Shown one piece after another: positions 3,759 to 6,681 of a stretch of 64,000 bases of DNA. A model generated the notes under the pieces. It saw only the letters and a program-made list of their open reading frames with translations, made no database searches and was not told the DNA's origin. How positions within the stretch are numbered: the stretch's first letter is position 1; each line of letters opens with the position of its first letter. This DNA is from Gammaproteobacteria bacterium (GTDB lineage: Bacteria > Pseudomonadota > Gammaproteobacteria > Xanthomonadales > Wenzhouxiangellaceae), in assembly GCA_021772975.1 (NCBI GenBank), contig JAJFKY010000020.1, positions 131,559 through 195,558 of the forward strand. The letters run 5' to 3'. The translations under genes and the position numbers were made by a program.

Positions 3759-4535
3759 CTAGCCGGGTAAACTGCGCTCGATAACAGCCGCCATTTTTTG
3801 CAGGCCGATGATCAGGCGTGGTCCGGGGCGTCCCAGATAAGCCTCACTGATAGCGACTATGCGCTGTTGTTTTACCGCGGTAATGTCGTGCCAGCCATCA
3901 CGGCGGCTGACGATACGCGGGCGATAGTTTTTTTCCGGCACTCCGCACCAGGACATCACAATAATATCCGGATTGATCTGCCGGGCTTGTGCGGTGCTGA
4001 TTTCCCTGCTCTGACAATCTTCCCCGCCGAGTGGGTTAACGCCACCGGCCAGGTCGATCAATTGGGTGGCCCAGGAATGCTGACCAGGGACGATCACCGG
4101 CTTGGGCCACCATTCCACCAGCACTTTAGGGCGCTGCTCGGTCTGGCGGGCGGAATACCTGGCCAGCCGTGAGCGAAACTGCTCAGCCAGCCGCCGGCCG
4201 CGCTCAGCAACCTGCAAGGCGGTGGCAATACGCAGGATATCGTCAGCCACATCGTCCAGACTGCGGGGAGCGGTCACCAGCACCGGAATACCGGTGGCCT
4301 GCAGGCCGGCAATCACTTCGCCGTGTCCAGGAACCGTATCCGAAGCGATGATCAGATCGGGTTTGAGAGCGGCCACCCGATCGGGCTCCACGCCCAGATC
4401 CGGCCCGACTTTAGGCAGCCGGGCGACCGTTTCAGGTGGATAATCAGAGTGCTGGTCAACACCCACCAGCCATGCCGCGCAACCGAGTGCACAGATAATC
4501 TCGGTATTGGAGCAGCTGTGACTGACGATACGCAT
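3759..4535 (-). CDS. BtuF-like cobalamin/iron-type ABC substrate-binding domain protein without signal peptide
   Basis: The protein matches the class III periplasmic binding protein fold (PF01497): start RIVSHSCSNTEIICALG, then VGVDQHSDYP, LKPDLIIAS, ALQVAE and a long bridging helix, with NPDIIVMSWCG near the end. Members of this group are often annotated as cobalamin-binding protein. No signal peptide is visible: the protein starts directly at the first beta strand. It may therefore be cytoplasmic or mis-started, but no better upstream start is evident. No permease or ATPase gene is adjacent. The ligand is uncertain. Confidence 0.8.
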   Translation of the reverse strand: MRIVSHSCSNTEIICALGCAAWLVGVDQHSDYPPETVARLPKVGPDLGVEPDRVAALKPDLIIASDTVPGHGEVIAGLQATGIPVLVTAPRSLDDVADDILRIATALQVAERGRRLAEQFRSRLARYSARQTEQRPKVLVEWWPKPVIVPGQHSWATQLIDLAGGVNPLGGEDCQSREISTAQARQINPDIIVMSWCGVPEKNYRPRIVSRRDGWHDITAVKQQRIVAISEAYLGRPGPRLIIGLQKMAAVIERSLPG

Positions 4536-4629
4536 GTTAAAGCCCGTAGCGGCAGCTTTAAGCTAAACCGCGGCTGTAAGAAAAGCCTGGAGCATGCTGG
4601 CCAGGCTTTTATACAGGCAGGGTCGCAGT

Positions 4630-5445
4630 TTACTTGCGCCGCGCCGCCGAACCGCCTCTGCCACCGGGGCCACGGCCGGCACTGCCTGCGCGTAAGCCGC
4701 CAGCGCCACGTCCAGCGCTGCCACGGGAGCCGCGAAAGCCGCCTCCCCGGTTGCCGCGATAACCGCGCCGGTGACCAAAGCCCCGCCGTCCACCGATGAA
4801 TCCGCGCCGATAACCATAGCCGAATCCGCGCCCAAACCCGAAGCCGCGCCCAAATCCAAATCCGTACCCGGGACCGTATAAAAAGCGGTTGTGAAACCCA
4901 AACGGGTAGCCGAAGCCGTAGGAAAAGTAGCCGTAGGAAAACGGGTGGAAAAACGGGCTGCCGTAAAAAGCATAACCGGGGTAATTACCGTAGCCGTAAC
5001 CATAGCCGTCCAGTCCGAAGCGTTCCGGCCATAGATACAGAACATCCGTGGCCACTACCGGATAGCGGTATTGATATTCACCGACTTCGCGTACCTGAAT
5101 GGTATCCACTCGTCCGGTGATGGTGACTTCACGGCCTTCGCGGAAAATCTGCGGGTCTTGAAAACCATTTTTGCAGGCGATAAAGCGGCCTTCGGTGCTG
5201 TCGGTAAATACCGGGCGGGCCTGATAATCCAGTTCCTGACCCAGAATCTCGATACAGGTTTTATTTTGTTCGGTATTGGTGGCAATGATGGTGCCGCCCC
5301 AGCGCACCGGAACACCGAGATTGTTATCCGAAACTGCCTGCGGGGAGATGCCCGGATAGTCTCCGGCGAGTGGTTGTGGAATGGTTGCACAGCCAGTGAA
5401 TGCCGCACTGACAATCAATAAACCAAGTAGCTTCCAGTGGCGCAT
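4630..5445 (-). CDS. Slp-family outer-membrane lipoprotein with Gly/aromatic and Arg-Gly tail
   Basis: The signal peptide ends in lipobox FTGCA (Cys19). Residues 20-140 resemble Slp/YeaY starvation lipoproteins: VRWGGTIIATN, LGQELDYQARP, GRFIACKNGFQDP, GREVTITGRV. From about residue 146 the sequence becomes a low-complexity tail, first Gly with Tyr/Phe (GYGYGYGNY, FGFGRGFGFG) and then Arg-Gly repeats to the end (about 213-271). Slp proteins normally stop near residue 190, so the tail is an addition. Function is unknown. The tail is strongly basic and may bind polyanions or self-associate, which is inference. Confidence 0.8.
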   Translation of the reverse strand: MRHWKLLGLLIVSAAFTGCATIPQPLAGDYPGISPQAVSDNNLGVPVRWGGTIIATNTEQNKTCIEILGQELDYQARPVFTDSTEGRFIACKNGFQDPQIFREGREVTITGRVDTIQVREVGEYQYRYPVVATDVLYLWPERFGLDGYGYGYGNYPGYAFYGSPFFHPFSYGYFSYGFGYPFGFHNRFLYGPGYGFGFGRGFGFGRGFGYGYRRGFIGGRRGFGHRRGYRGNRGGGFRGSRGSAGRGAGGLRAGSAGRGPGGRGGSAARRK

Positions 5446-5517: not shown

Positions 5518-5853
5518 TTATTCATTCAGCAATTCGTTGACTTTGGCGGCGCAGATGAAATCATTTTCTGATAAACCGTCAATCGCATGGGTGGTGAAGG
5601 TGACCGTACAGAAGTTGTAGCCGGCGGAGAAATCCGGATGATGCATTTCCTGGTTGGCGATCCAGGCCAGCGCGTTGATAAACGCCATGGTTTTATAAAA
5701 ACCTTTAAACTCGAACCGCCGCTGAATGGACTTGCCATCCTCAGCCAGTTCCCAGCCGGTTACCTGCTGTTGCAGTTTCTCGGCGACCACCCGGCTCAGC
5801 GGCTGAACGCCGCCTTCGCACGGCACGCACTTTTTGTCACTTAAATCACTCAT
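5518..5853 (-). CDS. phhB: Pterin-4a-carbinolamine dehydratase
   Basis: This 111-residue protein has the PCD/DCoH signature: WELAEDGKSIQRRF, then EMHHPDF with the catalytic His pair, and TTHAIDGLSENDF. It dehydrates the 4a-hydroxytetrahydropterin formed by phenylalanine hydroxylase so that the cofactor can be recycled. It lies 33 bases downstream of phhA on the same strand, the usual phhA-phhB operon. Confidence 0.95.
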   Translation of the reverse strand: MSDLSDKKCVPCEGGVQPLSRVVAEKLQQQVTGWELAEDGKSIQRRFEFKGFYKTMAFINALAWIANQEMHHPDFSAGYNFCTVTFTTHAIDGLSENDFICAAKVNELLNE

Positions 5854-5886: not shown

Positions 5887-6681
5887 TCAGGCGGCCTGTT
5901 TGGGTTCGTAGACAGGTTGACACAGTCCCAGTACTCTGGCTTTACGGATCAGACTGATCAGATCAAGCTCGGCCAGTTCATACATGTCGCTCAGGTCATG
6001 CAGGATATAATAAATCGGCTGATAAATATCAATCCGATATGGGGTGCGCAAGGCATCCATCACGTCAAAGCGCCGGCGTATGGGTTCATCGCTTTCGATC
6101 GCATACACCAGCTCTCCAGGTGAAGAATTGATGCCACCACCATAACTGCGGATGCCGCCGTGGGAGTCGAGTAAGCCAAACTCAACGGTAAACCAGTACA
6201 GTCGGGCCAGCAGCACGCGGTCTTCCTTGCTGGCATTGACGCCGGCTTTACCGTAGGCGGCGGTAAAATCGCCGAACGCCGGGTTGGTCAGCATGGCGGT
6301 ATGACCGAATATTTCATGAAAAATGTCCGGTTCCTGCAGATAGTCCATTTCCTCGCGGGTACGGATGAAAGAAGCGGCCGGAAAACGGCGCTCCGACAGC
6401 AGTCGGAAAAAGCGGTCAAAGTTGATCAACGCAGGCACCGGTTCTACCCGCCAGCCGGTTCGTTCCAGCAGTACTTTGGAGACTTCGCCCGGCTGTGGAA
6501 TACGATCATGAGGCAGTTTCAACATCTCCAGACCGTCCAGGAATTCCTGGCATACCCGGTTCTGGACAAGCTCCATCTGGCGGGTGATCAAATCGTGCCA
6601 GATGGAATGCTCTTCCTCAGTATACGGAATGATGCCGTTTTCATCGGGTACTTTGGCGGCATATTTGGTGCTTTTTCCCAT
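5887..6681 (-). CDS. phhA: Phenylalanine 4-monooxygenase
   Basis: The 264-residue monomeric bacterial enzyme converts phenylalanine to tyrosine using tetrahydropterin and O2 at a mononuclear iron. The iron ligands are visible in FHEIFGHTAM (two His) and in WFTVEFGLL (Glu). PDENGIIPYTEEEH and YELAELD are also family segments. It heads the phhA-phhB operon and is divergent from the FAD oxidoreductase at 6881 across a 199-base region. That region may hold the control sites, but no PhhR/TyrR box could be recognised with confidence. Confidence 0.96.
   Translation of the reverse strand: MGKSTKYAAKVPDENGIIPYTEEEHSIWHDLITRQMELVQNRVCQEFLDGLEMLKLPHDRIPQPGEVSKVLLERTGWRVEPVPALINFDRFFRLLSERRFPAASFIRTREEMDYLQEPDIFHEIFGHTAMLTNPAFGDFTAAYGKAGVNASKEDRVLLARLYWFTVEFGLLDSHGGIRSYGGGINSSPGELVYAIESDEPIRRRFDVMDALRTPYRIDIYQPIYYILHDLSDMYELAELDLISLIRKARVLGLCQPVYEPKQAA

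Follow-up and report, generated by a model that had tools for sequence, protein, structure and literature searches.

The locus described here raises the question of what a C-terminal tail of 131 residues, rich in glycine and aromatic residues in its first half and in arginine and glycine in its second, is doing on an Slp-family lipoprotein, and whether such a tail is a constrained part of the protein at all. The gene was examined in the window, the whole stretch of 64,000 nucleotides that was analysed, and its product was compared with Slp proteins sampled from the genus up to the phylum. Comparison of these sequences indicates that the long tail is real and constrained. The Slp family itself is known; what is new is the enlargement of the tail and its Arg-Gly-rich (RG) end.

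The slp gene, its product and its neighbors

Residues 17-156 of the slp product matched the Pfam family Slp (PF03843) with an E-value of 1.3e-38 and 132.2 bits (cut-off 22.5), and the NCBIfam model TIGR00752 (slp) gave 74 bits (E 9.4e-21), below its cut-off of 88.45, so that the protein was left unassigned to it. This is the one slp-type gene in the organism's own genome. The lipobox, F-T-G-C19, comes after a hydrophobic stretch, and a simple pattern found a lipobox-like motif in 82 of 90 Slp relatives. The +2 residue is Ala, which we take, by the Lol rule, to be an outer-membrane sorting signal. Judging from these motifs, the product is probably a lipid-anchored lipoprotein sorted to the outer membrane, and the Slp domain and lipobox named in the original prediction were both confirmed.

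Table 1. Features of the slp locus, with positions given in the window.
Feature	Position	Strand	Basis or remark
slp gene, Slp-family lipoprotein with a long tail, 271 aa	4630..5445	-	ATG start, ORF intact
Signal peptide and lipobox, residues 1-19, F-T-G-C	5389..5445	-	read in sequence
Slp domain, residues 20-140, predicted five-stranded OB fold	5026..5388	-	PF03843, AlphaFold2, fold matches
Tail part 1, residues 141-212, Gly/Phe/Tyr-rich	4810..5025	-	22 G, 15 F, 14 Y of 72
Tail part 2, residues 213-271, Arg-Gly-rich	4633..4809	-	23 G, 16 R of 59
phhB-like pterin-4a-carbinolamine dehydratase	5518..5853	-	PF01329, E 3.3e-28; 72 bp upstream of slp
Phenylalanine-4-hydroxylase-like (phhA-like) gene	5887..6681	-	sequence read; name presumed
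Peripla_BP_2 protein, downstream of slp	3759..4535	-	PF01497, E 2.4e-29
Perfect 10-bp inverted repeat, 10-nt loop, in the gap between slp and the btuF-like gene	4581..4610	.	terminator-like on either strand

A 1994 study reportedly introduced E. coli Slp as a lipoprotein of the outer membrane that is induced by carbon starvation, and to our knowledge its biochemical role is still unclear. The E. coli protein (b3506, PF03843) is built along the same lines, with a lipobox, an Slp domain and then an aromatic-Gly stretch (NLWDYGYGAFWPEPGWGAPYY). The window protein departs from the family in the length of its tail, 131 residues compared with a median of 36.5 over 198 distinct tails among the matches listed, and in its RG-rich basic end. 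It also carries a pair of cysteines in the Slp domain, both of which are missing from E. coli Slp.

The tail, residues 141-271, counts 45 Gly among its residues together with 20 Arg, 18 Phe and 15 Tyr, and its only acidic residues are one Asp and one Glu, for a net charge of +19. A long tail of low complexity ending in basic RG sequence was thus correctly foreseen. The best 60-residue stretch of the Slp protein holds 16 RG/GR pairs, compared with 5 in the next best of 370 open reading frames of the same genome, and for Gly-aromatic pairs the corresponding numbers are 28 and 7. These 370 frames, each of at least 100 amino acids, were called mechanically in 442,558 bases, made up of the window and 20 stretches and amounting to about 12% of the genome. 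Two sites in the whole genome match G[FY]G[FY]G[FY]G, both inside the Slp tail, and 18 of the 43 family genomes have this motif somewhere. That the same genome might encode another protein with such a tail was considered and rejected: besides slp, the search returned one weak match (E 1.27), which contains an internal stop.

Upstream of slp lie the phhB-like gene and a further gene that we take to be phenylalanine-4-hydroxylase-like, and the Peripla_BP_2 protein on the downstream side is presumably BtuF-like. The latter protein begins MRIVSHSCSNTEI and by eye has no obvious signal peptide, so it may be cytoplasmic. The inverted repeat in the gap between slp and the btuF-like gene ends in A/T runs, and its position suggests that the two genes do not form one transcript. 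This repeat is absent from the output of the consensus scan, whose loop limit is 8. No promoter-like site was found by consensus scan on the slp strand.

Distribution and origin of the long tail

Matches to the Slp domain (residues 1-150) were found in both genomes of the genus, in 41 of the 43 genomes of the family and in at least 265 of 299 sampled genomes of the order, with the organism's own genome included in the counts. The relatives read came from 92 loci and gave 90 rows after L002, a repeat of L001, and L032, whose protein is identical to that of L003, were dropped. Homologs with tails similar to that of the window protein (131 residues) were looked for and found in frame in the sister genome of the same genus, G001 (121 residues), and in G009 (131) and G008 (138), which both belong to another genus in this family, so that long tails are present in four of the 90 rows among the matches listed. 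All four have the same make-up, with the aromatic part first and the basic end after it. The remaining 86 rows have tails of 16-72 residues (L058 ends at the end of its contig), none of them with an RG-rich part. Because these 86 relatives lack it, the RG-rich part appears to be dispensable for core Slp function. Over all 90 rows the median tail is 42 residues long and about 25% Phe, Tyr and Trp.

Two elements of the original prediction do not hold in the form given, in light of these tails. The tail had been described as appended to Slp, but it is not simply so: it starts where most relatives carry a shorter aromatic tail. It had also been likened to low-complexity domains known from eukaryotic proteins, and is best described, not as a foreign addition of that kind, but as an enlargement of the aromatic tail that is common in the Slp family.

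A Pfam search at the level of the class gave matches in at least 95 of 369 genomes. Sixty loci were taken from it, those with long open frames first, and the longest tail in their 90 profile hits was 83 residues among the matches listed. To these were added 20 further loci, namely 17 family and order matches with long frames (among the matches listed) and three other family loci. The full comparison comprised 202 rows, E. coli K-12 Slp among them, with 198 distinct tails; L196 was counted with a tail of 52 residues, its row of 184 residues being an artefact of a split profile hit. Among the matches listed, only the four long tails reached 100 residues, and tails with at least five RG/GR pairs likewise numbered only four of the 198. 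In the same set, Phe, Tyr and Trp made up at least 15% of the sequence in 160 of the 197 distinct tails of at least 10 residues. Many of the tails below this share are short and belong to a second Slp paralogue. In the phylum-level sample matches were confined to 51 of 398 genomes, all of the same class, and the proteins read were those already in the comparison. On this sampling, Slp proteins with a long RG tail are apparently limited to one lineage.

The second Slp paralogue is present in many class-level genomes (for example at L096, L097, L122 and L135) and in several loci is adjacent to the first. Its short tail is of the H-F-G-I-G-V type and looks like an amphipathic strand, unlike the aromatic DPFY type. 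Separately, a protein of the family (L205, genome G006) has a tail of 70 residues, aromatic and then Arg/Ser-rich, that looks intermediate; its frame appears to be broken in the assembly.

A frameshift or simple-repeat slippage could in principle yield a meaningless tail of this kind. Consistent with such an origin, translation of 11 other family loci with the G[FY] motif often showed nothing but hexamer arrays at the hits, in frames that are doubtful by eye, with GGCTTC, GGGTTC and GGATAC arrays at L158, L161, L162, L163 and L164. The tail of the slp gene is of another kind: tandem exact copies of a hexamer number at most two, codon usage is mixed for Gly, Arg, Phe and Tyr, and Tandem Repeats Finder reported three short arrays of about two copies each. 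Furthermore, the order of the parts is the same in four genomes, and in each the tail and the domain share one frame, which speaks directly against a frameshift. We therefore regard an artefact as having almost no chance of being correct.

The gene order phhA-like, phhB-like, slp, btuF-like is found at all four long-tailed loci, the window included, and at none of 26 other family loci (flanks of about 1.5 kb or less) do these neighbors lie beside slp. This pattern is what would be expected if the Phe/Tyr-rich tail were functionally tied to the phenylalanine-hydroxylase-like neighbors, as it might be if they supplied Tyr or if its tyrosines were cross-linked. However, in a check whose flanks were mostly 150-200 bases upstream, phhB-like sequence was also found beside slp genes with short tails at three loci, L088 and L090 (family) and L038 (order), and the idea that the phhAB neighborhood goes only with the long tail was rejected for this reason. 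In addition, the enzymes so named act on free amino acids. A functional tie of this sort is thus very improbable.

Phylogenetic reconstruction from the 90 Slp domains grouped the four rows with long tails in one clade, with support of 97/80 and recovery in 96% of 200 bootstrap trees, the tool having warned that the columns were few for the number of rows. Since the four loci form one clade and share their gene order, lengthening in place is the simplest reading, in which the long tail would be an enlargement of the common Slp aromatic tail, plus a basic end. Slippage inside the tail may have been a route of this growth. When tails were aligned across the two genera, their similarity exceeded that of plain shuffles (z 4.2-5.6, 0 of 500), and with local composition kept the alignments gave z values of 1.5-2.3 for blocks of 10-20 and 1.9-3.4 for blocks of 40. 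Because the likeness between genera is weak once local composition is kept, the RG parts perhaps arose separately, and the basic ends of the two genera may have separate origins within the clade.

Constraint along the tail

Between the window gene and its same-genus relative, pS was 0.71 over residues 20-140, 0.97 over residues 141-210 and 0.78 over residues 211-271, and pN over the same three segments was 0.11, 0.22 and 0.39. The corresponding pN/pS ratios, which are rough in that synonymous sites are saturated and the protein-guided alignment flatters conservation, were 0.15 for the domain (bootstrap 0.09-0.23), 0.23 for residues 141-210 (0.15-0.30) and 0.51 for residues 211-271 (0.34-0.70).

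Conservation of residue order was assessed against shuffled tails, each of which was realigned. Residues 141-212 share 40 identities with the sister genome and scored above 1000 of 1000 shuffles with a z of 13.7. The score for residues 213-271 likewise exceeded 1000 of 1000 shuffles, with a z of 4.4; this RG half is 48% identical to that of the sister genome over aligned residues, and its 27 identities were equalled by the best shuffle. The distal half in the second genus pair has 25 identities, compared with 26 in the best shuffle, and by score beat 1000 of 1000 shuffles. Alignments of the tails in both genus pairs beat 1000 of 1000 shuffles, including when blocks of five residues were shuffled, for which the whole-tail z in the window genus was 11.6. 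These alignments indicate that within a genus the order of residues is kept and not composition alone, an effect that is clear for the aromatic half but modest for the RG half. The original prediction would have fallen had the tail been variable slippage of no constraint. The tail is not mere slippage, its order being kept, although the charge of little constraint is partly true of the RG half.

The difference between the two halves invites the explanation that only the aromatic half works, through contact with the membrane interface or peptidoglycan as the tails of other Slp proteins would, and that the RG half is a loosely constrained, nearly neutral extension, its composition alone keeping it basic and soluble. 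The pN/pS of 0.51 compared with 0.23 in the aromatic half and the shuffle z of 4.4 compared with 13.7 are as this explanation would have them, as are the tails of other Slp proteins, which are aromatic and not RG-rich and some of which end in Trp-rich segments. Yet the score of the distal half beats 1000 of 1000 shuffles in each genus pair, and the basic end is present in all four long tails. We consider a nearly neutral RG half doubtful, while granting it a real chance.

Predicted structure and proposed role of the arm

In an AlphaFold2 model built from 67 aligned sequences, residues 31-140 form a five-stranded domain with a pLDDT of 94-98 in each 10-residue block. The tail in the full model has a pLDDT of 68 at residues 141-150 and of 40-55 thereafter, with no secondary structure, and when modelled alone, with the four long tails aligned, it gave a mean pLDDT of 44.3 and a pTM of 0.09. 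The tail is accordingly predicted to be disordered, both in the full model and alone, as had been anticipated; low pLDDT is a sign of disorder and not proof of it. With 16 RG/GR pairs in 60 residues of a low-pLDDT region, the tail has the clustered repeats and predicted disorder that mark RG/RGG boxes, though we do not assign the protein to the nucleic-acid-binding proteins of that name. Like the RG/RGG domains of RNA-binding proteins, the window tail combines clustered Arg-Gly repeats, Gly-aromatic alternation and predicted disorder. In contrast to those proteins, the window protein is, as predicted from its sequence, a bacterial envelope lipoprotein, and it is the aromatic half of its tail that is conserved most.

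The Slp domain is predicted to adopt an OB fold, a five-stranded barrel. Foldseek ranked SSB and PriB first (E 3.1e-4) and returned six matches at 0.001 or better, with modest TM-scores of 0.41-0.61 when normalised to the SSB-/PriB-type targets. The top matches of VIA-align were the OB domains of the MCM N-terminal region and of Asp/Asn-tRNA synthetases, at a Z of about 10 and at best 10.6 over 83 residues with an rmsd of 2.2. No solved structure related by sequence to the Slp protein was found at an E-value of 0.1. Cys 64 and Cys 91 of the domain are both present in 116, both absent in 82 and single in none of 198 aligned rows, which are not all independent. Because the two are always present or absent together, they probably form a disulfide, likely gained or lost as a pair, and the paired cysteines support export of the protein, probably, to an oxidising compartment.

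We tentatively propose, as a reading that may well be right or wrong, that the protein is an OB-fold lipoprotein whose enlarged aromatic-cationic arm is a multivalent binder of anionic envelope polymers. Behind the lipid-anchored OB-fold domain would come a disordered arm some 130 residues long, whose half nearer the domain is aromatic and glycine-rich and whose distal half is cationic and made up of Arg and Gly, and this arm would work as a multivalent sticker. The aromatic residues would associate with the membrane interface, with glycan rings or with one another, and the distal arginines would bind anionic polymers of the envelope, such as LPS phosphates, acidic polysaccharide and perhaps DNA or RNA released by cells. 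The lipoprotein would thereby cross-link or stabilise the outer envelope. We thus infer that the arm may bind anionic envelope material, and perhaps itself.

The fold matches also bear on the explanation that the protein is a surface-exposed RGG protein binding extracellular DNA or RNA through its OB fold and RG tail, in the manner of cytoplasmic OB/RGG proteins. The best Foldseek matches are ssDNA-binding OB proteins, those of VIA-align are MCM and tRNA-synthetase OB domains, and in vertebrate proteins RNA binding by RG/RGG repeats has been reported (PMC6821194). However, the OB fold is very common and sharing it shows no ligand, the TM-scores are modest, and the window protein, unlike SSB and PriB, is lipid-anchored and is only 8-12% identical to them among the matches listed. 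Binding of extracellular nucleic acid in this manner is unlikely. We favor envelope polymers over nucleic acid as the ligand of the proposed arm, given that the protein has the look of an exported, lipid-anchored one and that an OB fold by itself does not argue for nucleic-acid binding. Slp of E. coli O157:H7 is reported to contribute to initial adherence (PMC6561548, PMC13193606), a hint that Slp may be accessible from outside the cell. The co-immunoprecipitation in the O157:H7 Slp work used whole-cell lysate (PMC6561548 / PMC13193606).

A related reading, in which a surface OB-fold/RGG lipoprotein binds or condenses extracellular nucleic acid or polyanions through Arg and aromatic stickers, is similarly improbable. 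If the surface reading were true, an architecture of eukaryotic RNA granules would have been re-invented as envelope glue by stretching an existing Slp tail.

Prokaryotic low-complexity regions have been reported to be conserved and linked to the binding of RNA, DNA, metal and polysaccharide (PMC6821194). Our search of a literature consisting mainly of open-access papers turned up no account of a long RG tail, whether on Slp or on a comparable lipoprotein. The term 'SLP' as it appears in PMC12419801 has another meaning and is unrelated to the Slp lipoprotein.

Returning to the proposed envelope-binding arm, the comparison suggests an anatomy for the family as a whole, an OB domain followed by an aromatic tail, in which it is the length and basicity of the tail that vary. 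Within this anatomy the protein with the long RG tail stands at a natural extreme, and it makes the function of the Slp tail testable. If the arm binds polyanions, it would provide an example of sticker-rich low-complexity sequence working in the bacterial outer envelope.
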